This document shows, piece by piece, positions 7,252-24,370 of a stretch of 64,000 nucleotides of DNA; within the stretch, counting starts at the first letter, position 1; each line of letters starts with the position of its first letter. The position numbers and the translations under genes are program-made. The notes under the pieces are model-generated. The model had not been told where the DNA came from. It was given only the letters and a program-made list of their open reading frames with translations, and searched no databases. This DNA comes from Lachnospiraceae bacterium YSB2008 (GTDB lineage Bacteria > Bacillota > Clostridia > Lachnospirales > Lachnospiraceae), in assembly GCA_000687655.1 (NCBI GenBank), contig JHWR01000013.1, positions 1 through 64,000 of the forward strand. Reading direction: 5' to 3'.

Positions 7252-7359
7252 ATGCTTTCCTAAAGTTAGAAATTATGATTTGATATGAAATGAACACCAA
7301 GAGATATAATAGCATATTATTCTGTAATTATTAAGAAATGATTATATTTTCGGGAAATA

Positions 7360-7388
7360 TTGACAGCCGATTTTCCTTATGATAATAT
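7360..7388 (+). promoter_or_regulatory. Sigma-A type promoter for the riboswitch/flotillin transcript
   Basis: TTGACA at 7360-7365, a 17-base spacer, and TAATAT at 7383-7388 (GATAAT at 7381 is an alternative). Predicted transcription start is near 7395, a few bases before the aptamer. Confidence 0.8.
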
Positions 7389-7401
7389 ACGTCTCAATAC
7401 A

Positions 7402-7498
7402 AATATAGGGAGTAGCTGCAGGGGATATTTCCACTGTACACACTTTCGTCATCACGACCTTTTTGGTCCGGAATGTGCATAATCAGCAAGACTGTATT
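7402..7498 (+). promoter_or_regulatory. yybP-ykoY family (Mn2+) riboswitch aptamer
   Basis: The element has the hallmarks of yybP-ykoY. P1 is AATATAG/CTGTATT (7402-7408/7492-7498). The 5' strand carries GGGAGTAGC (7408-7416) and the 3' strand AGCAAGAC (7485-7492). The internal CGTCATCACGACC (7447-7459) and GGTCCGG correspond to the conserved CGUCA and CCGG segments of the metal-binding loops. Family knowledge: Mn2+ docks two helical legs and usually turns expression on. Here AGCAAGAC is shared between P1 and the terminator that follows, which fits a transcriptional ON switch. The controlled gene is a flotillin-like protein rather than a recognised Mn exporter. Confidence 0.85.
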
Positions 7499-11678: not shown

Positions 11679-13235
11679 ATGAGGAAAAGATTAGGTAGAT
11701 ATAAGAATAGATTAATGGCAATATCAATCGCTGCAGTGATGATGATATCCATAGCCGGATGTGGAAATGCAGAGAACCAGAACGCTGATACAACATCAGA
11801 TACTGAGGTGGTAACTGAAGCTTCTTCGGATGATGAAACGACCGAGGATATTGATGAAGTGGCGGAAAGCAATTCATTTATCAAAAAAACAGATATAACG
11901 ATTGATGAAGAAATAACGAATGATGCAGATGGTGAGCATGCTATAGAGGCTGACGGTGAGGATGCAGAATACAGCAATGTTAAGGTTACTAAGACCGGAG
12001 AAGCTGATGGAGACGAGGCTGATTTCTATGGTGAAAATGCAGCAATCTTTGCTACGAACGGTGCAACCTTAAACCTTGAAGGAATACTGGTTGAGACAAA
12101 TGGTACTCACGCAAATGGAGTTTTTTCATACGGTGAAGGAACCACTGTGAATATCAAAGATTCGTATATAGAAACTACGGGTAACTGTTCCGGTGGACTT
12201 ATGACCACGGGTGGTGGAACCACGAATGCTGAGAATCTTACTATACATACGACAGGAAATTCATCAGCTGCCATTAGATCAGACCGAGGCGGCGGTACAG
12301 TGACCGTATCCAAGGGCAGTTATACAACGGAAGGAACCGGCTCTCCTGTAATATATTCCACCGCAGATATAACTGTAAATGATGCGACACTGACTTCAAC
12401 TGCATCAGAGGGTGTAGTCGTGGAAGGTAAGAATTCTGTTACTCTCAACAATGTTACACTTACCGCAGACAACAACAAGAAGAACAGCGATAAATCTGAT
12501 TGCTACAATGCAGTGATGATATATCAATCAATGTCCGGTGACGCTGCAAACGGCGAGGCTTCATTTACAATGAAGGGCGGAAGTCTCACTAACAAGAACG
12601 GAGACATATTCTTCGTGAATAACACCGTTGCAACTATCTCTCTTGAAGATGCTGATATTGTAAATGAAGACAGTGACGGAGTTTTTCTCAGAGCTGCAGC
12701 AGCAGGATGGGGAAATGAAGGCAGTAACGGTGGTCAGGTAACACTGAACGCTTCTGATCAGACTATAAATGGAGATATGATTGTCGATAGTGTTTCAAAC
12801 CTGAATCTATATCTTAAAGACAGTAGTTCATTTGAAGGTGCAATCAATACAGATGGACAGGAAGGCGAAGTATATGTAGAGCTGGATAGTGATTCAACAT
12901 GGAAGCTTACAGGTGATTCATACATTATATCCCTTACATGCGATGCAGACAGTATAGATCTGAATGGATATAAACTTTACGTAAATGGAAAGGAATATGA
13001 AGAAGGAACTGAAAGTAAGGGTGAAGCCATAGAAGTGACTGTCACTGAAGGAGGCGGCGACATGGGCGACATGCCGGGAGAACCTCCTGAGGGAATGGAT
13101 AACCCTTCGGGTGGAGATGGTAACACTCCTCCAGAACCACCGGAAGGAAAGGACGGAAACCGTCCTGAGAAACCTGGCGAAAAATCAGATGGAAATAGTG
13201 ACGCTCCACCGGAAAAGCCGGATGAAAGTAATTAA
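11679..13235 (+). CDS. Beta-helix lipoprotein with acidic linker and Pro/Glu-rich C-terminal tail
   Basis: A 518-residue secreted lipoprotein. The basic N-terminus and hydrophobic segment end in the lipobox SIAGC. An acidic Thr/Ser/Glu linker follows (about 25-110). The middle (about 110-430) is built of short repeated beta-strand units of the type TLNLEGI.VETNGTHANGVF, GTTVNIKDSYIETTG, characteristic of right-handed beta-helix surface proteins. The last 60 residues are low complexity (PGEPPEGMDN, PPEPPEGKDG, EKPGEKSDG). The ATG at 11679 has AAAGGAG nine bases upstream; the in-frame TTG at 11670 touches the binding site and was rejected. Function is unknown: adhesion, carbohydrate binding or surface display are possible. 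No sortase signal is seen. Confidence 0.75.
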   Translation: MRKRLGRYKNRLMAISIAAVMMISIAGCGNAENQNADTTSDTEVVTEASSDDETTEDIDEVAESNSFIKKTDITIDEEITNDADGEHAIEADGEDAEYSNVKVTKTGEADGDEADFYGENAAIFATNGATLNLEGILVETNGTHANGVFSYGEGTTVNIKDSYIETTGNCSGGLMTTGGGTTNAENLTIHTTGNSSAAIRSDRGGGTVTVSKGSYTTEGTGSPVIYSTADITVNDATLTSTASEGVVVEGKNSVTLNNVTLTADNNKKNSDKSDCYNAVMIYQSMSGDAANGEASFTMKGGSLTNKNGDIFFVNNTVATISLEDADIVNEDSDGVFLRAAAAGWGNEGSNGGQVTLNASDQTINGDMIVDSVSNLNLYLKDSSSFEGAINTDGQEGEVYVELDSDSTWKLTGDSYIISLTCDADSIDLNGYKLYVNGKEYEEGTESKGEAIEVTVTEGGGDMGDMPGEPPEGMDNPSGGDGNTPPEPPEGKDGNRPEKPGEKSDGNSDAPPEKPDESN

Positions 13236-13246
13236 AAATTGAAAGA

Positions 13247-13278
13247 CGAAATGCCCGCTGGATTGCGGGCATTTCTTT
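13247..13278. terminator. Bidirectional terminator between lipoprotein and kinase genes
   Basis: GAAATGCCCGC, loop TGGATT, GCGGGCATTTC, with TTT on the plus side and A-rich sequence on the 5' side. It can therefore serve both convergent genes. Confidence 0.9.
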
Positions 13279-13289
13279 ATCTGATCATA

Positions 13290-15218
13290 TTAATCATAGT
13301 AATCATCATCTTCGAAGGTACTCATATATATAGGAACCTCCTCCAGATCTCCATCCAAAGAACTGGCTGTGAAATCTCTGGTGATATACTTTCTGGTTGC
13401 ATATTCCTGAGTGACGAACCATTCGCCTTCGTAGTAATTCAGGAACATACAGAAGTTGTTTCCACCTGGTGTTTTGAAGTCATATTGTGAGAAGTTTCCG
13501 GCAGGATCTGCAAGACCTGTGTCAGGGGTTCCGCCGAAGTTAATGACTGTCCTGGCCATTCCGTCGTCAAGTGTGTCTGCGACATTGTCACAACGTAATG
13601 CTACAAGCTTATTGTTCTTAAAATAAAAAGCTATTACTTCCGAATGTCCATTTATAGTTTGTAAGCTGTCACAATATTCAAGAGTTTCCAGGCTGTAATC
13701 CCAGTCAACAAGAGCAGGAAGATCGTACATGACTTTAAGATCATCGTAACTCATGCCCAGAAGTGATTCGTCAATCTGAAGCCAGTCATCCACATCATAT
13801 ATTGAAATAGCAGCATCTGCGTCATTACCGTTTGGAGTTTTTATATCTCTATTTTCGGTTGTGGCTTCAGTAGTCTTTTTCTCAGTTGTAGCCTTTGTAG
13901 TGGCCTCAGTAGTTTTCTTCTCAGTAGTCTTCTTTTCAGTCGTGGCTTTGGTAGTAGATTCCTTCTTGGTGGTAGCCTCAGTTTTCTGATTTCCGGAATA
14001 TGCATAATTATCTTTTTTCTTTGAGTTACCTGATTTAACAGCGGCTGCTATTCCTATTATCAGTAACAGAACACCGGCTATTCCTATTATGAGCTTAACC
14101 CGGTTCTTTTTATCAAATATTCCACCATTGCCACCGTATGAATTATTATTTGAGGTTGGTGATGAAGGTGCTTCCTCAATCACTTCGCCAAATCGGTTTT
14201 TCTTTGGTTCGACCGGCTTTGGAGTATCACTAGGTGCAGGCTGAGTTGGTTTAGCGGCAGCAGTAAGATTGTCTGTCGCACCCGGTCGATCTGAACGGGT
14301 CAGATATCCGGTTGCAGCCTTCGCCTCCATGACATCATATTCAACTGAAGAGGTCATGGCATTCTTGAATTCCGTCATGGTCTGGAATCTGTCCTTTGGC
14401 TGTACATTCATGGCATGAAGTATAGCCTGCTCGGCAATCCTGCCCATCTTTACTCCTCGGGCTGAAGGTGGTATAAGTTCATCCTCTTCGAGACGATCTA
14501 TGGAATCAGGAGGCCTTTTGCCGGTAACTGCATAGTAAAATGTTGCACCCAATGAATAAACATCCGTATACGGACCCTGCTTACCGCGCCTTGTGTACTG
14601 TTCCTTTGGTGCAAAACCATGCTTAAGTACGACGTCAAGGCTCTGGCTTCTGTCACCTATGCTGTATCTGGCAGCACCGAAATCAAGAAGCTTAATCTTC
14701 CCGTCATTTGTTATATAGATATTGTCAGGAGTAACATCTCTATGGACTATTCCTTTGCTGTGAACTACAGCGAGTGCATCTATAACAGGACCCAGTATGT
14801 CATAAGCCTCATCAAAGGTTACTTTGCCGCCCTTTTCTTTGATGTATTCGTCGAAGCTTTTTCCTTCGATGTATTCCATAACAAAGTAGGCCGTTCCATT
14901 TTCTTCAAAGTATGAAAAAATACGGACGATGTTTTCATTTCCAATGAACTTGCCGAGAGTTTCAGCTTCCTGGAGGAAGCACTCTTTGCCGTAGCCGTAG
15001 ATTTCACCGCGTTCGCCTGTATATGGAACAACCGTGATACCCTCACGGGTTACCATGGTATCAGGGAAGAATTCTTTAACTGCAACGTAGCCCTTTGTTT
15101 TATGGTCAAGGGCTTTGTAGGTTATTCCGAATCCTCCCTGACCGAGAACTTTTTCTATAACATATTGTCCTGCGAGGACAGTGCCCTTAGGAAGGGCAAC
15201 CGGATATTCTTTTCCCAT
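13290..15218 (-). CDS. Membrane-spanning Ser/Thr protein kinase (Hanks type)
   Basis: A 642-residue protein. Residues about 15-275 form a eukaryotic-type kinase: LGQGGFGITYKA (P-loop), VAVKEFF (Lys), VHRDVTPDNIYI (catalytic loop, with V-T replacing the common L-K), LDFGAARY, and GFAPKEQY (activation segment). A proline-rich linker leads to one membrane span (about 374-394, LIIGIAGVLLLIIGIAA). A Thr/Lys-rich stretch (TTKATTEKKTTEK type) and an unassigned domain of about 180 residues lie outside the membrane. No PASTA repeats are present, so the signal differs from that of PrkC. The start ATG directly abuts the TAA of the upstream hrb gene, and AGGAGG lies inside hrb, which implies translational coupling. 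Confidence 0.92.
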   Translation of the reverse strand: MGKEYPVALPKGTVLAGQYVIEKVLGQGGFGITYKALDHKTKGYVAVKEFFPDTMVTREGITVVPYTGERGEIYGYGKECFLQEAETLGKFIGNENIVRIFSYFEENGTAYFVMEYIEGKSFDEYIKEKGGKVTFDEAYDILGPVIDALAVVHSKGIVHRDVTPDNIYITNDGKIKLLDFGAARYSIGDRSQSLDVVLKHGFAPKEQYTRRGKQGPYTDVYSLGATFYYAVTGKRPPDSIDRLEEDELIPPSARGVKMGRIAEQAILHAMNVQPKDRFQTMTEFKNAMTSSVEYDVMEAKAATGYLTRSDRPGATDNLTAAAKPTQPAPSDTPKPVEPKKNRFGEVIEEAPSSPTSNNNSYGGNGGIFDKKNRVKLIIGIAGVLLLIIGIAAAVKSGNSKKKDNYAYSGNQKTEATTKKESTTKATTEKKTTEKKTTEATTKATTEKKTTEATTENRDIKTPNGNDADAAISIYDVDDWLQIDESLLGMSYDDLKVMYDLPALVDWDYSLETLEYCDSLQTINGHSEVIAFYFKNNKLVALRCDNVADTLDDGMARTVINFGGTPDTGLADPAGNFSQYDFKTPGGNNFCMFLNYYEGEWFVTQEYATRKYITRDFTASSLDGDLEEVPIYMSTFEDDDYYD

Positions 15219-15866
15219 TTAATTCGCCTCCTGAAGCTTAAAGTACTCCTTGCCATGTTTACACCATGGGCAGGTCCAGTCATCAGGAAGCTCCTCAAAT
15301 GGAACGCCCTCAGCGGCTTCATCATATGTATATCCACAGATTTCACATACCCATACTTTGCTTCCACCTTCTGCTTTGGCCGGTGCATCTTTCTTTGGCT
15401 TTACATTTGCGTGATAGAAGGAGTAGCTCATAGGTGAATTCTCAGACAGAACTTCACCGTCATCCACTGAAGCTATGAAGAGTGTATGGGAGCCCAGATC
15501 TATAGACTGTTCAACTGTCATAGATATATAGCCGCAGGTGCCTTTATTGATATATGGCAGTCCATTTGCGGATAAAGCATAATCAGAAAAGCCTGCAAAT
15601 TTATCTACGTCCTTGCCGCTCTGGAATCCGAAGTGCTTGAACAGTGAGAAGTCGGCGCTTTCATCAATGAGAGATGCATTAATCTTTCCGGTTCTCCGAA
15701 TCATTCCTTCAGTATAATTCTGTTTATTTACAGTAACAGAAACTCTGTTCGGTTCAGAAGTCTGCTGCATCACGGTGTTTACGATACAGCCATTCAGCTT
15801 GTCATCCTCTTTTGCTGTGAGGACGAACAGACCATATGTTATCTTAAACATTACATTTTTATCCAT
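15219..15866 (-). CDS. hrb: High-molecular-weight rubredoxin (flavin reductase-rubredoxin fusion)
   Basis: A 215-residue protein. Residues 1-155 form a flavin-reductase/split-barrel FMN-binding domain (ITYGLFVLTA, NGCIVNTVMQQTSEP, and GCGYI-like GTCGYIS). Residues about 170-215 form a rubredoxin domain with both iron-binding pairs (VCEICGYTYD and CPWCKHG). Such fusions (Hrb of Moorella) pass NADH electrons to flavodiiron proteins, here FprA at 5347-6498. The start was moved to the second ATG, because GGAGGG lies seven bases before it and overlaps the first ATG at 15881. The kinase gene follows without any gap. Confidence 0.94.
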   Translation of the reverse strand: MDKNVMFKITYGLFVLTAKEDDKLNGCIVNTVMQQTSEPNRVSVTVNKQNYTEGMIRRTGKINASLIDESADFSLFKHFGFQSGKDVDKFAGFSDYALSANGLPYINKGTCGYISMTVEQSIDLGSHTLFIASVDDGEVLSENSPMSYSFYHANVKPKKDAPAKAEGGSKVWVCEICGYTYDEAAEGVPFEELPDDWTCPWCKHGKEYFKLQEAN

Positions 15867-15964
15867 AACAAAACCCTCCATATTTACAACCCCAATGAGA
15901 CAGGCATGATTGCCGGCCTCAGTACTTCTAATATGAGATTATTTTAGCATAGAGTGGAATGAAA

Positions 15965-15993
15965 TTGTATAAATAAATTGGTTATTGTATAAT
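15965..15993 (+). promoter_or_regulatory. Probable promoter of the thioesterase gene
   Basis: TTGTAT at 15965-15970, a 17-base spacer, and a perfect TATAAT at 15988-15993. The -10 box overlaps the upstream in-frame ATG at 15992, which argues against that ATG as the start. Confidence 0.65.
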
Positions 15994-16030
15994 GGTCACG
16001 AGTTTTAAAATGAAAGAAAAGAGATTTATC

Positions 16031-16507
16031 ATGAGTTACGAAAAAGGAACAAAGAGTGTAGAGGATTCAAAGACTGAAACTATTCACTGCCCTCAGTATG
16101 AAGATATAAATGGATTTGGAAGACTTTTCGGCGGAAGGCTGATGGAATGGATTGATACTGCAGCAGGAGTCTGTGCCATAAGGCATTCGGGCCTTGTTGT
16201 TACAACTGCAGCGGTTGATCATCTTGAATTTAAGAGTGGAGCATACCTCGGAGACATAGTTGTCATAGTTGCCAAGGTCGTGTATGTCGGCCGTTCATCC
16301 ATGGATATCCGAGTTGATACATATGTAGAAGATAAGGAAACCGGCATGCGTCGTCCTATAAACCGCGCATATCTTACAGAGGTCTGCATCGATAAGGATG
16401 GCAAACCTGTTCCGGTCCCTTATGGCATTCAGCTTTCAAATGAATCAGAAAGAGCTGAGTTTGAGATAGCAAAGAAGAGACGAGAAAATAAGAGGAATCA
16501 GATATAG
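16031..16507 (+). CDS. Hotdog-fold acyl-CoA thioesterase (YciA/BACH type)
   Basis: A 158-residue single hotdog domain. HCPQYEDINGFGRLFGGRLM contains the typical N-x-x-G-x-x-F/L-G-G-x-L signature, followed by WIDTAAGVCA. These enzymes hydrolyse acyl-CoA to free acid and CoA in the cytosol. The start at 16031 is preferred to 15992, because the earlier ATG lies inside the predicted -10 box. An AAGAGA-like binding site precedes 16031. The chain-length preference cannot be told. The gene is divergent from hrb. Confidence 0.88.
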   Translation: MSYEKGTKSVEDSKTETIHCPQYEDINGFGRLFGGRLMEWIDTAAGVCAIRHSGLVVTTAAVDHLEFKSGAYLGDIVVIVAKVVYVGRSSMDIRVDTYVEDKETGMRRPINRAYLTEVCIDKDGKPVPVPYGIQLSNESERAEFEIAKKRRENKRNQI

Positions 16508-16528
16508 AGAATATCTTTTGAAATGTTT

Positions 16529-16921
16529 TCAATCATAAAACCTATCCATACCAGACCCGGCCTCGAGCCATTTGACATATTTTTCAGGCTCCTTCTTCAT
16601 GAAAGCCATAGTCATAAATGTATCGAGTGCCAGGGCTTCTTTGTTACAGTCTCCATAATTCTTACCTATGTCCTGTTTGATCTCAACATTTCTCATGTTG
16701 AAAAAGTATAGATCAGTGAGTCCGTATCCGCTTATTTTATATGTATCCCGGAATGTATGATTATCCACGTAATACATGAATTCGTTCATGAGTTCTTCGT
16801 CTGAAACGAGTTCGTTCCAGAGTAAATCAACGAAGGCGTCATCCTTGTTTGCGAAGTTGGCAAGATATTTCAAACATTCGAGGGCTTTTACTTTTCTTGA
16901 ATCAAAGATTATATTTGGCAT
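16529..16921 (-). CDS. Conserved hypothetical protein, unassigned
   Basis: A 130-residue acidic cytosolic protein without membrane spans. It begins MPNIIFDSRKVKALECLKYL and is rich in aromatic and charged residues, probably all-helical in its N-terminal half. I recognise no domain. It is convergent with the thioesterase gene (21 bases apart) and divergent from the reverse transcriptase unit. The ribosome binding site is weak (TAGGAAA). Coding status is supported by its length, lack of overlap and codon use like its neighbours. Confidence 0.65.
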   Translation of the reverse strand: MPNIIFDSRKVKALECLKYLANFANKDDAFVDLLWNELVSDEELMNEFMYYVDNHTFRDTYKISGYGLTDLYFFNMRNVEIKQDIGKNYGDCNKEALALDTFMTMAFMKKEPEKYVKWLEAGSGMDRFYD

Positions 16922-17000
16922 AGTTTTTGTTTTCCTATCATTGATATCAACAGTATATCCTTATGGGATTGCTCTATCAAGGTGGAAGTTAAAGATATAA

Positions 17001-17029
17001 TAGACAGATTTTTTAAATAATAATATAAT
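17001..17029 (+). promoter_or_regulatory. Promoter of the reverse transcriptase leader RNA
   Basis: TAGACA at 17001-17006, a 17-base spacer, and a perfect TATAAT at 17024-17029. The predicted start near 17036 coincides with the beginning of the structured leader. Confidence 0.78.
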
Positions 17030-17035
17030 TGAAAA

Positions 17036-17197
17036 GTCATCAGAATGCCGCATGGCGTCTGCGATGGGGCGAAGCATACAGCGATTTTTCACTTTGCAGG
17101 CAGTGGCTGTATGTTCAGTCTTGTGCAATATACTATTGCTTCAAATAGTTTCTGATGGATATTGTTGTAGAGCATGTCAGATCAGACATGCTCTATT
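17036..17197 (+). ncRNA. Predicted structured RNA upstream of the reverse transcriptase
   Basis: About 160 bases with no reading frame but dense pairing. An 8-bp closing stem CATCAGAA/TTCTGATG (17038-17045/17150-17157) encloses three hairpins: GCC-GCAT-GGC (17047-17056); CATACAGC...GCTGTATG (17075-17113) with an inner CACT/AGTG and a T-rich bulge; and GCAATA-TAC-TATTGC (17125-17139). A fourth, AGAGCATGTC-AGATCA-GACATGCTCT (17169-17194), follows and lacks a U-tract. A promoter just upstream places transcription start at its 5' edge. This layout recalls the small RNAs used by bacterial reverse transcriptases such as retrons, but no known class is recognised. A cis-acting regulatory leader is an alternative. 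Confidence 0.55.
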
Positions 17198-17218
17198 GTA
17201 TATGTAAGTAAGGAAAGT

Positions 17219-18445
17219 ATGGAAATCATTGAAAGACTGTCAACTAAAGAAGCGTGGGAAGCCTTTCTTGCCAGAAAGATTGAACAGGATACCATGACAA
17301 GAAAAGAACTTGCTGACCTCACGGCCTTTGTTACAGCAGAAGAGTATCTTCCTGTTACTTCAGAGATGGCGGAGCGATACGTCTTTCCGCTTCCGACTCT
17401 GAAGGAAATCAACCGCCTCAGTAACGGGAAGAAAAGGGTGGTCTATACATTTCCGAGAACCGAGAATTATATACTTAAACTGATCACATTTCTTCTGCAT
17501 GAATTCGATAGTGAATTCTCACAGAACCTTTATTCTTTCAAGGAACGCACGGGTGTGAAGCAGGCGGTGCAGAGGATTTCCTCCCGTGTCGATATTCGGA
17601 ATTGTTATTCTTATAAAGTAGATATCCATGATTATTTTAATTCAATAGACGTTGGTCTTTTGATGCCGATGTTGAAAAAACAGCTTACAAATGAACCGAA
17701 AACCGTAGACTTTTTCGACCGGCTTCTGAATGAACCGCGTGTTATATGTGGGGATCATACAGAAGAACGCAAGAAGGGTGTTATGGCGGGATTGCCAACA
17801 TCAGGATTCATGGCAAATCTGTATCTCTCAGATATGGATTTCTGGTTTGAAGAACGTAACATTCCTTATATCAGATACTCCGACGATATTATAGTTTTTG
17901 CAGAGACAGCAGAAGAGATAAGGGAGTACGAATCTCGTATCAAGGATTATCTTAATAAGAAGAATCTTACTGTAAATGAATCGAAAGAGGTTAGGACACT
18001 CCCGGGCGAACCTATGGAATTTCTTGGATTCAGGTTCGAAGATGGAAATATAGATGTTTCGCATATTTCACTTCTTAAGATCAAGGGTAAGCTCCGACGT
18101 AAGGCAAGAGCCATATACAGGTGGAAGAATCGAAAAGGGGTAAGTGATGAAAAGGCAATAAAGGTATATATAGATTTTCTGAACAAGAAATTCTATAACA
18201 ATCCGGTGCATGAGGAGATTACCTGGTGCAGGTGGTATTTCCCTGTGCTGACTACTGACCGGAGCCTTAAGCTTATAGATGAATATGCAGTGAGCTGCAT
18301 AAGGTATCTGAAGACCGGCAGGTATGGTAAGACGAACTATCATCTGCGTTATGAGACGATTAAGGAATATGGCTACCGAAGCCTTGTATATAGTTTCTGG
18401 GAAATGAAACGAGGTTTGAAACATTCGAAAAACCAAACTCGATAG
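17219..18445 (+). CDS. Stand-alone reverse transcriptase, unclassified
   Basis: A 408-residue RT with its main motifs intact: motif A YKVDIHDYFNSID (catalytic Asp near 135), motif B GLPTSGFMANLYLSDMD, motif C IRYSDDIIVF (YSDD at about 220-223), motif D NLTVNESK and motif E MEFLGFRF. The N-terminal FSQNLYSFKERTGVKQAVQR segment resembles RTs of the group II intron/DGR side more than retrons. About 120 residues follow the palm (RWYFPVLTTDRSLKLID, YLKTGRYGKTNY). No endonuclease or intron RNA is seen. I prefer the ATG at 17219 (AAGGA upstream) to the ATG at 17174, which lies in a hairpin arm without a binding site. An acyltransferase gene follows after 21 bases. Confidence 0.88.
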   Translation: MEIIERLSTKEAWEAFLARKIEQDTMTRKELADLTAFVTAEEYLPVTSEMAERYVFPLPTLKEINRLSNGKKRVVYTFPRTENYILKLITFLLHEFDSEFSQNLYSFKERTGVKQAVQRISSRVDIRNCYSYKVDIHDYFNSIDVGLLMPMLKKQLTNEPKTVDFFDRLLNEPRVICGDHTEERKKGVMAGLPTSGFMANLYLSDMDFWFEERNIPYIRYSDDIIVFAETAEEIREYESRIKDYLNKKNLTVNESKEVRTLPGEPMEFLGFRFEDGNIDVSHISLLKIKGKLRRKARAIYRWKNRKGVSDEKAIKVYIDFLNKKFYNNPVHEEITWCRWYFPVLTTDRSLKLIDEYAVSCIRYLKTGRYGKTNYHLRYETIKEYGYRSLVYSFWEMKRGLKHSKNQTR

Positions 18446-18466
18446 TTATAACAACGAGGAATTATT

Positions 18467-19747
18467 ATGAATAAAAATAAAAAAGAAGATATGCGTCCGT
18501 TTGATATGACGAGACCGCCAAAGAGGATTCCGTGGTATATACTGCCGCTTATGTGGGGCGGTTCATTTGTTATGACCAGGGCTTCACATCTGAAGATAAA
18601 GAAAGTCGGAGTGAGTGAGATAAAGCCTCCATACCTAGTGATATCTACACATCAGGGCTTTTCAGATTATTATATTGCGCCACTGGCACTGTATCCTTAC
18701 AGAGCGAATTATGTATCTGATATGGAAGGCTTTGCAGCGTTTGGGTATTGGCTTTATCGGAGTATCGGGTGCATAGGCAAGAGACGTTATGTGTCTGATG
18801 TTACTGTGCTCCAGAATATGTATAAATGTATTGAGGCCGGAGATTCTGTAGTATTATTCCCGGAATCGAGACACGCAAATGTGGGAACTACTTCGAAGCT
18901 TCCGAAGAATCTTGGACAGCTGGCGAAGCATTTTGCAAAGAAATATGGCATTCCACTCGTCATACTTTCTGCTCATGGAAGCTATCTTACCAATCCGTTC
19001 TGGGATGAAGAGCATACAAGAAAAGGCAGGATGGAAGCGACTCTGGAGAAACTCTATACTGCAGACGAATTGCTTAATATGGATGCTGAAGAAGTGCAGT
19101 CCGCAATCGAGAAGAAGCTTCAATATGACGAATATGCATGGCAGCAGGAGAATGGCATAGAGTTTATCGGAAAGAATCTCGCAAAGGGTCTGGAGGGACC
19201 TCTCTATCAGTGCATTTCCTGCGGAAAGAAATATGCGATGATTTCAAAGGATGACCGTATTGGGTGTACTTCCTGCAGGAAGGTATGGAAACTGAGTCCG
19301 AGGGGATTTCTTTATGATACCGACGGAAGGAAGTATCAGATTCCTGAATGGTATGAATGGGAAAGGGATAATGCTACGTCGAAGATAGAACCGAAGAGAT
19401 TTAAAGTCAGAATAGAGGCACTTCCAAATGAACATGGTTTTGTAAATCTGGGAGAAGGTCGTCTTGTTATGAATGATATTTCATTTACATTACATTTCAA
19501 AGCGAAGAAAAAGTATAACTATATTCCTAAAGACTGGAAGATAGCAAAGACTGAGGACGGGGATGAGGTCCGTATTGAATTTCCACATGAGTACAGAGAG
19601 TCACTCCAGACAGAATATAACTATAAGGGAAATGGAATGGCGATAGTTCTTTCAAATCAGGATGCAACGTATTACATTTATTCAGATGATAAGCACTTTA
19701 ATCCTACAGAGCTTCAGTTTATCGCTGAAGCATTAACCAGGTGCTGA
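18467..19747 (+). CDS. PlsC-type acyltransferase with C-terminal zinc ribbon
   Basis: A 426-residue protein. Residues about 30-230 form an acyltransferase domain: the catalytic H-x4-D is in STHQGFSDYYIAP, and VVLFPESRH replaces the common FPEG block. About residues 245-275 contain two CxxC pairs (CISCGKKY and CTSCRKVW), a zinc ribbon, followed by a domain of about 150 residues that I do not recognise. The family transfers acyl chains to lysophospholipids. No clear membrane span is present except a weak one near residues 26-40. The RBS is ACGAGGAA. The gene is probably co-transcribed with the reverse transcriptase (21-base gap). Confidence 0.82.
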   Translation: MNKNKKEDMRPFDMTRPPKRIPWYILPLMWGGSFVMTRASHLKIKKVGVSEIKPPYLVISTHQGFSDYYIAPLALYPYRANYVSDMEGFAAFGYWLYRSIGCIGKRRYVSDVTVLQNMYKCIEAGDSVVLFPESRHANVGTTSKLPKNLGQLAKHFAKKYGIPLVILSAHGSYLTNPFWDEEHTRKGRMEATLEKLYTADELLNMDAEEVQSAIEKKLQYDEYAWQQENGIEFIGKNLAKGLEGPLYQCISCGKKYAMISKDDRIGCTSCRKVWKLSPRGFLYDTDGRKYQIPEWYEWERDNATSKIEPKRFKVRIEALPNEHGFVNLGEGRLVMNDISFTLHFKAKKKYNYIPKDWKIAKTEDGDEVRIEFPHEYRESLQTEYNYKGNGMAIVLSNQDATYYIYSDDKHFNPTELQFIAEALTRC

Positions 19748-19852
19748 ATAACAGACGGTTAGGATGATTTTCCAGTGAACTGTGGCATAATGGACAGATA
19801 ACACTACGGATGATATAATTCCTTATAACATTCAAAAATATGAGGTTCAAAT

Positions 19853-20557
19853 ATGAGCGAAAGAAAGAAACTCGGAATTCTGGGTGGAATGGGCCCCGAA
19901 GCTACAGAGGTTTTTTATAAGAAAATAATTGATGGAACGGTTGTGTCAAATGACAGGGATCATCTGGATATTCTCATATATTCGCATGCGTCCATTCCGG
20001 ACAGAACTGAATGCATTATGTGCGGAAAGAGCGATGAACTCTGGGCGATTCTTGAAGAAGATGTCAGAATGCTGAAATCATGCGGATGCGATTATCTCGC
20101 AATTCCATGTAATACCTGCCATTATTTTGCTGAGAAGTTTGACAGTCTTATGGACGGGCATTTCATTAACATGATCGAAGAAACTGCAGATTATGTGGCA
20201 AAGCGAAATTATAAAAAAGTCGGAATCATGGCCACTGACGGAACTGTCAGAAATAATATGTATGGTGATGCTCTGGAGAAGCATGGAATAGAAGCTGTTT
20301 ATCCGAGCGAAGAGAATCAGAAAAAGGTTATGTCTATAATCTATGATGAGATAAAAGCCGGAGAAAAGGGCGATAAGCATAAGTTCATGGAGGTAGCATC
20401 GGCACTCCGTGAAGAAGGGTGCGAGGCAGTTGTACTTGCCTGCACTGAGCTTTCGGTATTCAACAATAATTATGACTTAAACAGTGATTTCTACATAGAC
20501 GCACTTGAAGTTGTTACGACTGCCTGCATAGAGAAGTGCGGAGGACAGGCGTATTAA
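19853..20557 (+). CDS. Aspartate/glutamate racemase family protein
   Basis: A 234-residue enzyme beginning GILGGMGPEATEVFYKKI, the signature of aspartate racemases. The two catalytic cysteines are visible in IPCNTCHYF and LACTELSVF. The reaction interconverts L- and D-Asp (or Glu) without cofactor. D-Asp could feed a D-Asp ligase; the ATP-grasp protein at 27392-28621 belongs to a fold that includes such ligases, but the two genes are far apart. The gene overlaps the last 4 bases of the convergent small gene. Confidence 0.9.
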   Translation: MSERKKLGILGGMGPEATEVFYKKIIDGTVVSNDRDHLDILIYSHASIPDRTECIMCGKSDELWAILEEDVRMLKSCGCDYLAIPCNTCHYFAEKFDSLMDGHFINMIEETADYVAKRNYKKVGIMATDGTVRNNMYGDALEKHGIEAVYPSEENQKKVMSIIYDEIKAGEKGDKHKFMEVASALREEGCEAVVLACTELSVFNNNYDLNSDFYIDALEVVTTACIEKCGGQAY

Positions 20558-20781
20558 TATGTTCTCTTGAAATTCTTTACATCATTTTCAAAATCAGAAA
20601 GTATGCTTCGGTATGCTGCAAGGTCTTTTTCCTTCAGCTTGCCGGAGTTTTCTTTTTCAAGAAGAGTTTCTCTGAGTTTCTTGATTCCGAGAACAGCGTT
20701 GTCTTTATAATTATTGGAGAGATCGACTTTGATTTCCTCTATGATCTTTTCAAGTTCTTTATCTTTCTTATTCCAGAACAT
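20554..20781 (-). CDS. Small charged helical protein, unassigned
   Basis: A 75-residue, Lys/Glu-rich, probably all-helical protein (DKELEKIIEEIKVDLSNNY). GAAGGAGA lies 8 bases before the ATG, and the gene starts 3 bases after the stop of the SGNH hydrolase gene, so it looks like a real second cistron. It has no membrane span and no recognised domain. Confidence 0.7.
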   Translation of the reverse strand: MFWNKKDKELEKIIEEIKVDLSNNYKDNAVLGIKKLRETLLEKENSGKLKEKDLAAYRSILSDFENDVKNFKRTY

Positions 20782-20784
20782 AAT

Positions 20785-21774
20785 CTACTTCTCCTTCTTT
20801 TCAAGATTATCCTCGATTCTGTCCAGTATAGCTTCTCCGAGAACTCTGTATCCGGTGCTGTTGAAATGGAGTCCGTCCGACAGAAGACTTGGTGGGGTCA
20901 TTCCATTTTCCATATATGACTTGTCCTCATCGGTTGGTTCTATGCCTGCCTTTTTCAGGCCCTCGGTTGACATGTATTCTCTCAGGTTGAGGAATCTGTC
21001 ACCATATTCTTTTTCGAGAGCTTCTTCGACGTCTTTTCTATCTTCACGGGTTCCGGTATGGAGACCGACTATGAGATAGTCAGTTCCGTTTCCATACTTT
21101 GACAGAATCTGCTTCTGAAGATATATAAGATCTTCCGGTGAATCCCATCCGCCGTTCTGGCCTATGAAAATGACCGGATAATAAGTCTCATAATTTTTAT
21201 ATGTATCATATAGTTTTAAATGAATTGCTGTTCCTGCAGCAACAGTGCCGGACGTTCCGGGTTCATTTCGCCTGAATGTATAGTGAAATTCAGCTGCCTC
21301 CGGGGCTTCCTGTTCGACACGCAGTATACCCGGAATGGTTGTTCCGCTTTTATCTGTGATAGTTACTTCCCATTCATTTCCAGGATATCTTCTGAGAGGG
21401 TTTACCGGATGACCGTCTTCGGCAGATATAGAAATATCGACAGGCTCAGTACCTTCAGGGATCGTGACATCTTCGGTAATCACAAATTTCATTCCGCCGC
21501 TTCTGCATACTATAGTTGGAGCGTTTTCGGCGCCGACCCCGCAGTTGGCAACGACGAATTTTCTGCCCCTTATCATTCCCTGGATTGTTTTCGGGTAGGT
21601 CACACCATCACCCTTTGTGCCTTCTGTCAGACTGTCACCCCAGCAGACTATTCCGTCAAATTCTTTTGCAACCTGTCTGTTAGGGCTCTGCAGAGCTATT
21701 ATTACAAAGACTGAGAGCAGTATTATTATGATGGGTGCAAGCAATGCTATAATTTTTTTAGATTTATCTTTCAT
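20785..21774 (-). CDS. Membrane-anchored SGNH/GDSL hydrolase
   Basis: A 329-residue protein with an N-terminal membrane anchor (ALLAPIIIILLSVFVIIAL). The extracytoplasmic SGNH hydrolase shows block I CWGDSLTEGTKGDG, block II VANCGVGAEN, an N in IFIGQNGGWD and the C-terminal catalytic pair in DGLHFNSTGY. It is probably an esterase/deacetylase acting on cell-surface sugars or lipids. The start at 21774 (GAGGAATTAATG) replaces the upstream ATG at 21831, which has no binding site and lies within the promoter region of the divergent traX-like gene. About 100 residues between blocks II and III form an insert. Confidence 0.87.
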   Translation of the reverse strand: MKDKSKKIIALLAPIIIILLSVFVIIALQSPNRQVAKEFDGIVCWGDSLTEGTKGDGVTYPKTIQGMIRGRKFVVANCGVGAENAPTIVCRSGGMKFVITEDVTIPEGTEPVDISISAEDGHPVNPLRRYPGNEWEVTITDKSGTTIPGILRVEQEAPEAAEFHYTFRRNEPGTSGTVAAGTAIHLKLYDTYKNYETYYPVIFIGQNGGWDSPEDLIYLQKQILSKYGNGTDYLIVGLHTGTREDRKDVEEALEKEYGDRFLNLREYMSTEGLKKAGIEPTDEDKSYMENGMTPPSLLSDGLHFNSTGYRVLGEAILDRIEDNLEKKEK

Positions 21775-21830
21775 TAATTCCTCGATTGTCCTATTAAGAT
21801 TACTGTTGCATAGTATTATAATATCCCGCA

Positions 21831-21860
21831 TTGGAAAATGCTACCATATAGTGTTATAAT
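21831..21860 (+). promoter_or_regulatory. Promoter of the TraX-family gene
   Basis: TTGGAA at 21831-21836, an 18-base spacer, and TATAAT at 21855-21860 preceded by GTGT. The predicted start near 21867 lies after the upstream in-frame ATG at 21838, which supports ATG 21886. Confidence 0.7.
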
Positions 21861-21885
21861 CACTCCGTATGAGAGGAAGTTTAAA

Positions 21886-22668
21886 ATGGGGAAAGAAATA
21901 ACTGAAACAAAAAAAGGTTTGTCTGCCTGTACACTTAAAATAATCGCATGTATAACCATGTTTATAGATCATTTCGGTTCCGCTGTATTGGAGAAGGGAT
22001 ATCTGAATCCATCCATAAGCGGAATACCTGAATCAAGCAGTCTCTACAACAGTCTTCTGATCCTCAATACAGTCTGCAGATCTGTCGGACGACTTGCTAT
22101 GCCGATATTCTATTTCCTGATGGTTGAAGGTTTCATTCATACAAGGAACAGATGGAAGTATCTCATAAACATGCTGATATTCGGTGTTATATCAGAAGTA
22201 CCTTTTGATATTGCCTTCTTCCATGAATCGTTCCATCCGATGTACCAGAACATTTATTTTAATCTTGCCTTCAGTCTTCTTATGCTGATCGCATGGGATA
22301 AGTTCGTTGGCGAAAGCTATAGCTCTGCATCGGCCGCACAGAAGACGAAAGCAATATTGTCGGTGATAGGCATATGCATTGCCGCATCTTTAACCTTTAC
22401 GGATTACTATATGATCGGCCCTGTGATAGCACTGATTTTCTATCTGAATCATGATAAAGAGAAGGACAGAAACATAGAATCAGGAATCGTATTTTTCGCA
22501 GTAAGTGCATTTGGTATGGGAGAATTCCTGGCATGTTTCGACTTCATTCTTTTCCATTTCTATAATGGCAAGAGGGGACGCCAGCTGAAATACTTATTCT
22601 ACGCTTTTTACCCCGGTCATATACTGATATTGATTTTAATCAGATATTTATTGTTCAAAACGATATAA
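21886..22668 (+). CDS. TraX family integral membrane protein
   Basis: A 260-residue membrane protein with about seven hydrophobic segments. The family signature is clear: LSACTLKIIACITMFIDHFG, AMPIFYFLMVEGFIHTRNRW and GVISEVPFDI. TraX of F plasmids acetylates pilin. Chromosomal homologues are common in Firmicutes, where the role is not settled but acyl transfer to surface molecules is plausible. The start at 21886 has GAGAGGAAG upstream and lies downstream of the predicted promoter. Confidence 0.88.
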   Translation: MGKEITETKKGLSACTLKIIACITMFIDHFGSAVLEKGYLNPSISGIPESSSLYNSLLILNTVCRSVGRLAMPIFYFLMVEGFIHTRNRWKYLINMLIFGVISEVPFDIAFFHESFHPMYQNIYFNLAFSLLMLIAWDKFVGESYSSASAAQKTKAILSVIGICIAASLTFTDYYMIGPVIALIFYLNHDKEKDRNIESGIVFFAVSAFGMGEFLACFDFILFHFYNGKRGRQLKYLFYAFYPGHILILILIRYLLFKTI

Positions 22669-22727
22669 TGTAAAAATGTAACGAGCTGACAAAAGCTACT
22701 GGTTTTATTCATTTGGAGGAACCGAGA

Positions 22728-23576
22728 TTGATAACAATCAGGGACATTAAAAAAAGCTTCGGTGCAAATAATGTTCTTCGCGGACTGAACTGCACCATAG
22801 ATGAAGGAAGCATATATGGACTTATAGGCAAGAATGGCGCAGGTAAGACTACGCTCATGAACATCATGGCGGGTCTTTCAAAAGCTGACAGTGGAGAGGT
22901 TGAATATAACAAGGGTTCGAAAGTGGGTTACCTTCCTGACCTTCCGAATTTCTTTGATTATCTCACGACAGATGAGTACCTGGACTTTCTGCTTATGGAT
23001 AAGAATCCGGCAAGAAGAGATGAGCTTCTTAAAACAGTTGGACTTCCAAAAGGCGCCAAGGTTAAGACTATGTCAAGAGGTATGAAGCAGAGACTCGGAA
23101 TTGCAGCAGTGCTTGTAAATGATCCGGATGTCATACTTCTTGATGAGCCTACATCTGCGCTTGATCCATCAGGACGAAATGATGTTAAGGATATACTTCT
23201 GGGACTTAAGGCCAAGGGAAAGACAGTTATTCTTTCTACACATATATTGGCAGACATGGACAGTATATGTGACAAAGCAGGCTTCTTAAGTCAGGGAGTC
23301 ATCGCAAGAGAAGTGAACGTCAAGGAAGAGAGTCAGATCAAAAAAGAGATGGTCATTTCATTTACGACTGAGCCTGATTTAAAGACTCTTTATAACTATA
23401 CCCAGAAGATTATAGTTGTTGATCCAAAAACGATAAGGATAGTTCTCGATGAGGAAGACAAAGCTGCCAGCCAGAAGAAGGTATTCGAAGGACTGACGAA
23501 GCTTCCTCAGGAGGTAAGTTATATAAGTACAGTAACACTTTCACTGGACAACATTTTCAGGGAGGTGTGCATATGA
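22728..23576 (+). CDS. ABC transporter ATP-binding protein
   Basis: A 282-residue ATPase: Walker A GKNGAGKTT, signature MSRGMKQRLGIA, Walker B VILLDEPTSALD, and the H-loop STHIL. The C-terminal 70 residues are a variable extension. A TTG start at 22728 fits GGAGG at 22715-22719 (8 bases), which would make the protein begin (M)ITIRDIKKSF. The longer frame from TTG 22713 overlaps the binding site. The permease gene overlaps its stop (ATGA), so the two form one transporter, probably an exporter of the two-component ABC-2 type. Confidence 0.9.
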   Translation: MITIRDIKKSFGANNVLRGLNCTIDEGSIYGLIGKNGAGKTTLMNIMAGLSKADSGEVEYNKGSKVGYLPDLPNFFDYLTTDEYLDFLLMDKNPARRDELLKTVGLPKGAKVKTMSRGMKQRLGIAAVLVNDPDVILLDEPTSALDPSGRNDVKDILLGLKAKGKTVILSTHILADMDSICDKAGFLSQGVIAREVNVKEESQIKKEMVISFTTEPDLKTLYNYTQKIIVVDPKTIRIVLDEEDKAASQKKVFEGLTKLPQEVSYISTVTLSLDNIFREVCI

Positions 23577-24370
23577 TGACAGGACTTAAATGCTGTATAA
23601 AAAAAGATATAAAAGAAGTGCTCCGAACAGGTAAAGTTATACTCTTTGCTGCGATGGTACTTGGAATAGCCGTTATGATAATGGGATTCACCATGATCTT
23701 TACAGATATTCCGGATGCATTGACCGAACAGCTTCCGGGTTTTGATATTTCAGCTCTCGAGAGTATGATGGTAACCCTGTATCCGAAACGTGTTGCAGGC
23801 AGTGTGGGTGTGTATTCTTATTACATTGGAGTGTTTTTATCACTTGTTGCTATACTTGTTATACATTCCCTTCTTCCGAAAGAAATCAGGAACGGCAAGT
23901 GGGTTCTTCCTCTGGAACAGGGCTATTCAAAGAGGGTACTTATTACTTCAAAATGTATCGTTTACGGACTTCTTGCATTCGTATTTGTATTTATCGGATA
24001 CATGCTTTATTTCTCGGTGGCAAAGACATTCATGCTTAATGACTTAAGTGCAGGAAATGCTGTATTCCTCGCGATGATCCACGGGCTCAATCTGTTCTTT
24101 ATCATTACATTTACATTGTTACTCTCAGTATGTTTCAAAAGCAGTGTGTGGGCGGCTATATCCATGATAGGAACTATTCTTGTGGCTCCGGATATATTTG
24201 GAATGCTTCCTTTTGGAAAGTATCTTCCGACATACATGCTGACTATAGTTTATGATACGATAACAGACCACAGCAGGGTTGTTGGGCCGCTTATGCTGAA
24301 TATACTCCTGCTTGCATTTACATATATCATTGCAGTGAACAGGGTAGAGAAACTCTCTGTATCACGATGA
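23573..24370 (+). CDS. ABC transporter permease
   Basis: A 265-residue membrane protein with six predicted spans, paired with the ATPase just upstream (their stop and start overlap). A large extracytoplasmic loop follows the first span (about 45-85). The organisation fits ABC-2 type exporters. GGAGG lies 7 bases before ATG 23573; the next codon is also ATG. The substrate is unknown. Confidence 0.85.
   Translation: MMTGLKCCIKKDIKEVLRTGKVILFAAMVLGIAVMIMGFTMIFTDIPDALTEQLPGFDISALESMMVTLYPKRVAGSVGVYSYYIGVFLSLVAILVIHSLLPKEIRNGKWVLPLEQGYSKRVLITSKCIVYGLLAFVFVFIGYMLYFSVAKTFMLNDLSAGNAVFLAMIHGLNLFFIITFTLLLSVCFKSSVWAAISMIGTILVAPDIFGMLPFGKYLPTYMLTIVYDTITDHSRVVGPLMLNILLLAFTYIIAVNRVEKLSVSR

Follow-up and report, generated by a model that had tools for sequence, protein, structure and literature searches.

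Recent work on Class 2 UG reverse transcriptases (RTs) has brought to light de novo genes, DNA homopolymers and telomerase-like repeats. DRT10 (UG17) uses a cis-encoded RNA of 137 nucleotides (nt) that consists of a large central stem-loop and four smaller ones, carries an A-B-A' template and requires a SLATT protein (PMC12632851). DRT9 (UG28) is characterized by a conserved poly-U template and by C-terminal tyrosines (PMC12483538, PMC12489045). UG26 is a catalogued, uncharacterised branch that a single paper of the literature searched names, in passing and as a viral RT class. The terms 'RF03026', 'RT-5 RNA' and 'UG26 RT' are unmentioned there, and an earlier link between UG26 and RT-5 may stand in UG-classification or RT-motif papers outside that search. 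Here we analyze a stretch of 64,000 nt from Lachnospiraceae bacterium YSB2008 (contig JHWR01000013.1, positions 1 to 64,000; the window), which encodes a UG26 RT together with an RT-5 RNA in cis. We propose, with a probability of about 0.57, that the two form a Class 2 UG/DRT-type ribonucleoprotein in which part of the RNA is copied into DNA for phage defence.

Both halves of this unit are already catalogued. The cmscan program assigns the RNA to Rfam family RF03026 ('RT-5') with 74.6 bits at 17053-17153, against a gathering cut-off of 45.7 and over the full model (1-104); a match to GA-cis RNA (22.4 bits, cut-off 34.7) was set aside. The RT matches the PADLOC profile RT_UG26 with 527 bits (E 6e-159) over profile positions 1-396 of 398, corresponding to residues 16-412 of a 423-residue open reading frame (ORF). 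The next PADLOC profiles are generic RT (114 bits), UG17 (110.5), UG4 (92), UG27 (90), Cas1 fusion (84.5), Drt9 (82) and Drt3a (79). All NCBIfam families listed score under their cut-offs, including group II maturase (102.6 against 300), Drt3a (72 against 200), Drt2 (66 against 390) and retron St85 (58.2 against 235), and RVT_1 is the sole Pfam match of the RT at E up to 0.01. In the NCBIfam order, Drt3a and Drt2 stand above AbiA, Drt4, Drt5 and Drt3b; the class membership of Drt4, Drt5 and AbiA is taken as general background. The next-best UG profile after UG26, that of UG17 (DRT10), belongs to a Class 2 member, a placement made by profile scores, and class membership of UG17, Drt2, Drt3a, Drt3b and Drt9 follows published work (PMC12632851, PMC13174585, PMC12489045). 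The original prediction, made from the letters of the window, had suggested a new class of RT-RNA pair. This reading is unsupported because both the RNA and the RT are catalogued. The same prediction had considered that the RT might fall into a known class whose template lies elsewhere; the class is indeed known, but the RNA lies in cis.

RT and RNA occur together across relatives. A scan of genome contigs yields 48 loci with 33-50% identity over the best segment; they are labelled mostly Erysipelotrichaceae, Lachnospiraceae and Bacteroidales and include one archaeal metagenome-assembled genome. RF03026 was recovered from 22 genomes out of 392 in the order and UG26, with E of 1e-40 or lower, from 41 out of 397 in the family; both counts include the window's genome. 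Our covariance model R1, built from 51 seeds without the pseudoknot, finds the RNA in 92 of 95 RT loci; in the three misses (L031, L044 and L078), the sequence available upstream of the RT is no longer than approximately 100 bases. Applied to the family draw, R1 gives 35 RNA places in 33 genomes, each of these genomes also being one of the 41 with the RT. RT places of at least 400 bits are accompanied by the RNA in 34 of 35 cases of this draw (on another contig in G463), and the remaining place (G635, identical to L097) has an RNA that is found in the 95-locus search. The best RT match is below 400 bits in eight genomes: G588 (266 bits, partial RT) has the RNA, G459, G551, G597 and G613 are weak RT matches of about 140 bits, and G334, G362 and G639 (loci L119, L120 and L121) remain without an RT-5 match even at E up to 1 and with the filters switched off. 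The RTs of the last three score 297-382 bits with UG26, are 27-31% identical to the window RT and may form a branch of their own whose RNA is different or absent. As judged from these sequence comparisons, the RT-5 RNA is strongly supported as a constant partner of the UG26 RT family and as one half of a dedicated RT-RNA pair.

What structure does the RT-5 RNA adopt? Pairing was counted in a 92-row alignment (89 distinct sequences) that was obtained by running the pseudoknot-free model over all 95 sources. Six duplicates were excluded (L049, L058, L060, L063, L065 and L089); some systems are still present twice (L001/L066 and L036/L037), and the non-seed rows L037, L066, L091 and L093 repeat a seed system. 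With identical rows of this alignment counted once, 94.9% of 2732 cells (one pair in one row) are paired, compared with 74.0% in shuffles and 43-46% with slid partners. Two-sided changes are observed at 31 of 31 counted pairs and in 637 cells, against 164.5 in shuffles, and the stems of the predicted RT-RNA pair do covary. The P6 hairpin is excluded from this count because its register differs between rows. Counts on the seeds themselves (alignment A2) lean towards the structure because our own finder had selected the 51 seeds for a clear pseudoknot and a clear closing helix. Energy folding of 17036-17158 gives -43.8 kcal/mol (z = -2.9), a value reached by 2 of 200 shuffles; this energy fold omits the pseudoknot, and its minimum is partly unlike the comparative structure.

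The pseudoknot forms in 539 of 552 cells, although the rows were aligned by a model that is blind to it, and in 246 of 258 cells of the 43 rows outside the seeds, which include at least the four repeats of seed systems named above. One row (L070) is misaligned at the pseudoknot through an insert and was scored as unpaired. Compensated arm pairs include GCCTGC/GCAGGC, GTCCGC/GCGGAC, GCTCGC/GCGAGC and ACCTGC/GCAGGT. The closing helix P1 was evaluated at 86 loci, where the best helix has a mean score of 29.5 compared with 17.0 when the 3' part is shuffled, and 58 of the 86 beat the best shuffle. P1 lies outside the Rfam RT-5 match, and the nested RT-5 structure line from cmscan starts inside P2, lacks P1 and leaves both pseudoknot arms unpaired. 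P1 and the pseudoknot therefore appear to be additions relative to the nested structure line printed for the RT-5 model. The predicted module of roughly 120 bases with its closing helix is borne out by these data, and its three hairpins correspond to three hairpin domains within a structure that the pseudoknot makes richer than anticipated. Two divergent loci were observed besides. In L100 (1956-2036), the P3/P5 loop appears with a long insert of 2.3 copies of a 35-nt tandem repeat, and the RT match in that genome carries one in-frame stop. In L043, labelled Methanomassiliicoccaceae, the sole R1 match (7354-7488, 42.6 bits) is located downstream of the RT, which runs from 6001, and 4 of 6 pseudoknot pairs are retained.

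Table 1. Positions of the RT-RNA unit and its structural elements in the window
Feature	Position	Strand	Evidence
Promoter, TAGACA-17 bp-TATAAT	17001..17029	+	consensus match; boxes in relatives without partner gene
RT-5-type structured RNA, whole module	17038..17157	+	RF03026 74.6 bits over 17053-17153; own model R1 95.9 bits over 17038-17157 (the window is itself one of the R1 seeds)
P1 closing helix CATCAGAA/TTCTGATG	17038..17045 with 17150..17157	+	90.9% of cells paired; two-sided changes in 8/8 pairs
P2 hairpin GCC-GCAT-GGC	17047..17056	+	95.1% of cells paired; two-sided changes in 3/3 counted pairs
H-type pseudoknot, 5' arm GTCTGC, 3' arm GCAGGC in P5 hairpin loop	17057..17062 with 17096..17101	+	99.0% of cells paired; two-sided changes in 6/6 pairs
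Branched P4/P3/P5 domain	17067..17121	+	every counted pair with two-sided changes
P4	17067-17070/17118-17121	+	95.2% of cells paired
P3	17076-17081/17107-17112, plus C17082-G17106 (read from sequence)	+	96.6% of cells paired
P3/P5 loop GATTTTT, less likely template candidate	17083..17089	+	0.06-0.29 bits per position (nearly random)
P5	17090-17093/17102-17105	+	94.0% of cells paired
P6 hairpin GCAATA-TAC-TATTGC, last in module	17125..17139	+	stretch folded alone in 92 rows: hairpin in most, register varies
J6/1 single strand TTCAAATAGT, favoured template candidate	17140..17149	+	core UUNAA conserved
11-bp hairpin in the spacer before the RT gene, without T-run	17168..17195 (17168-17178/17185-17195)	+	read from sequence
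UG26 reverse transcriptase, 408 residues, YSDD	17219..18445	+	PADLOC RT_UG26 527 bits, E 6e-159; AlphaFold2 predicted local distance difference test 93.6

The single strands of the module differ in conservation, which was weighted to an effective number of 57 sequences. Unpaired letters are invariant at GC 17074-17075, GU 17113-17114, GU 17123-17124 and A17144, and U17141 is conserved at 95%. The J6/1 strand, which lies between P6 and the closing helix, has a length of 10 nt by the model columns in 87 of 92 rows; in some rows, P6 may include its first base. The aligned P3/P5 loop is 6-9 nt long in 64 of 92 rows and is replaced by a hairpin-forming insert of -3.5 kcal/mol or better in 6 of 92. 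An A-B-A' template was sought in J6/1 and in the P3/P5 loop, and neither shows enrichment or coupling of this pattern. In the P3/P5 loop, hand-picked cases looked striking, but the 70 unique loops with a length of 5-14 nt, to which the count was confined, have a mean longest repeat of 1.69 versus 1.77 in shuffles, and 6 of them contain a repeat of at least 3, versus 8.8 in shuffles. In J6/1, we do not claim the pattern because a permutation test is negative against one positive, confounded shuffle test.

The RNA is preceded by a sigma-A-type promoter that matches 11 of 12 consensus letters. This promoter is weak as sole evidence because the 400-base region contains 4 promoter-like sites versus 1.6 in shuffles. 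Among 16 rows in which no partner gene is detected upstream, a TATAAT-like box lies 0-14 nt 5' of the closing helix in 10 (2.2 in shuffles), whereas loci with an upstream partner gene have such a box before the RNA in 6 of 75 cases, against 5.3 expected. The comparison supports the view that, where the partner gene is absent, a promoter abuts the RNA and that the RNA in the window has its own promoter, from which transcription would be expected to start near 17036. The hairpin predicted to follow the module is present, with 11 rather than 10 base pairs; many long-spacer relatives likewise fold strongly between the module and the RT start, and no terminator-like site was found in 16900-17300. 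The listed ORF opens at ATG 17174, inside this fourth hairpin. The RT is taken as 17219-18445 (408 residues) because the UG26 profile match begins at residue 16 of that ORF, which is ATG 17219, with taaggaaag just before it; on this sequence evidence, 17219 is probably the start rather than 17174. Counted from ATG 17219, the YSDD motif occupies residues 220-223, and in 70 aligned relatives Y220, D222 and D223 are invariant and S221 is conserved at 94%. The promoter, the compact structured RNA and the YSDD RT of the original prediction are thus all real.

The partner gene encodes a nuclease-fold protein (PADLOC RTasCOG2852) and is located upstream in 75 of 95 RT loci; it is a frequent companion of UG26 RTs but is not known to be essential. 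It was not found in the window's genome with profile A5, which recovers the gene in 3 of 3 known carrier genomes, and the best match of the PADLOC profile in that genome has E 0.07 and contains stops. The window unit is a two-component version that lacks the partner gene by the searches made. No neighbour gene common to 14 partner-less loci was found at E 1e-6 among open stretches of at least 70 residues within 2.6 kb (1.5 kb for many). In L085, a COG2852-like gene (736-1472) is placed after the RT-5 RNA and before the RT rather than ahead of the RNA. The COG2852-like proteins of L007 (3479-4012) and 49 relatives are Vsr-like in fold, Tyr169 and Arg173 are invariant in the 50 sequences, and no conserved acidic catalytic pair is seen in them.

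How might the RT and its RNA cooperate? In the ribonucleoprotein that we propose, the RT-5 RNA, whose own promoter here and whose closed, pseudoknotted fold are supported by comparison, would be bound by the UG26 RT, which would repeatedly copy a short single-stranded stretch of the RNA into DNA. Template, primer and defence role are inferred, the last of these from relatives. The favoured template candidate is J6/1, at the position that DRT9 and DRT10 templates seem to occupy relative to their stem-loops; P6 would serve as the template boundary, with the closing helix on the other side. The DNA product would act in phage defence, probably through abortive infection, and in most relatives the protein from the gene just upstream would join. 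A rather unlikely alternative is that the RNA is only a scaffold or activator, that J6/1 holds the RNA in the protein and that the RT makes DNA untemplated, like the studied Class 1 UG RTs. Such a role would accord with the lack of an A-B-A' signal and with the three invariant single-stranded dinucleotides, which resemble protein-binding sites and of which J6/1 could be another; however, the UG profile nearest to UG26 is of Class 2, as are the NCBIfam families with the better scores, and those Class 2 members that have been studied use an RNA template. It is improbable that the variable P3/P5 loop is instead a freely evolving template as in DRT10. With a stem on its 5' side and a pseudoknot arm on its 3' side, the loop fits the telomerase/DRT2 order (PMC12039810), and its free sequence of nonetheless restricted length recalls the DRT10 templates, which are poorly conserved too, but its repeats do not exceed those of shuffles and it is a hairpin-folding insert in some rows.

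We also doubt that the RNA is merely a cis-regulatory leader of the RT gene, such as an attenuator or a riboswitch. In nearly every locus the RNA does precede the RT, and many loci have further hairpins before the start codon. However, a gene intervenes between RNA and RT in L085, the RNA match of L043 is downstream of the RT, and in partner-gene loci the RNA follows that gene without its own promoter box; a cofactor would better explain why single-stranded letters are conserved and why the RNA keeps to one RT family. A retron-like element that produces multicopy single-stranded DNA would likewise combine an RT with a structured RNA upstream, but this reading is very improbable given the low score of St85, the sole retron profile in the NCBIfam list, and an RNA that is RT-5, with no other RNA family there above its cut-off. 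Moreover, the RT has YSDD and not the YADD usual in retron RTs. A group II intron is similarly disfavoured by the sub-threshold maturase score, by RVT_1 as the only Pfam match and by the lack of intron RNA above gathering, in line with the original prediction on both counts. That prediction also reported no repeats typical of diversity-generating retroelements, and none of at least 40 bases was found in 12000-24000, where repeats under approximately 65% alike would escape; the 24-39-nt repeat families near the RT look like chance or low-complexity linker.

The neighbours of the RT-RNA unit are, on one side, a thioesterase gene together with a small unknown gene and, on the other, an acyltransferase gene. 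The unit is regarded as accessory because two genomes of the genus (G1014 and G1017) keep a 65-66% identical acyltransferase without an RT in the 8-8.5 kb examined. Compared with G1014 (L111), the order and orientation of the rubredoxin-domain, thioesterase and acyltransferase genes differ in 15219-19744, beside the RT insertion point. The adjoining gene at 16529-16921 (minus strand) encodes a 130-residue protein that has no Pfam or PADLOC match and was not found in the examined regions of two genus relatives. No clear defence gene was detected among the neighbours (10 proteins against PADLOC, 13 against Pfam). A Ser/Thr kinase at 13290-15218 (minus strand) matches the PADLOC PD-T4-6 kinase profiles and contains a repetitive lysine/threonine/glutamate linker, with a DNA repeat at 13858-13950, and a neighbouring radical-SAM protein weakly matches the PADLOC viperin profiles. 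Mobile carriers were also sought: six exact peptide patterns revealed no relative in viral contigs, the plasmid matches listed (30 of 1005) are 21-27% identical and mostly annotated as group II RTs, and the phage matches listed (15 of 33) align with part of the RT at 21-28% identity. UG17 gave no match at E 1e-60 in 291 genomes of the class, a search that recovered no control either and is thus uninformative.

Compared with known systems, the window RNA matches RT-5 end to end and the RT matches UG26, most relatives of which differ from the window genome in having the RTasCOG2852-type gene upstream. With its link to RT-5, to a pseudoknot and closing helix, to a partner gene and to a specific 10-nt template candidate, UG26 now lends itself to direct testing. 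It is possible, though we advance it tentatively, that UG26-RT-5 represents a type of RNA-templated defence RT not yet described, in which a 120-nt pseudoknotted RNA would present a near-constant 10-nt template (UUNAA core) between P6 and the closing helix to be spooled into repetitive DNA, and that the lone window form would be a minimal two-part member of a telomerase-like group. DRT10 resembles this unit in its small cis-encoded RNA and as the next-best UG profile; unlike DRT10, the window RNA shows no A-B-A' signal, and no SLATT partner was matched among 13 neighbouring proteins with Pfam or 10 with PADLOC. DRT9 differs in that J6/1 is UUNAA-centred here and no conserved tyrosine tail is seen. 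DRT2 and telomerase RNA share with RT-5 a pseudoknot in the RT-bound RNA and a single strand between stem and pseudoknot (PMC12039810); the DRT2 template measures 120 nt, whereas the entire RT-5 module is 120 nt, and the resemblance is one of topology rather than of shown homology. The closest studied relatives of UG26 provide anti-viral defence in bacteria by copying a short piece of their own RNA into DNA.
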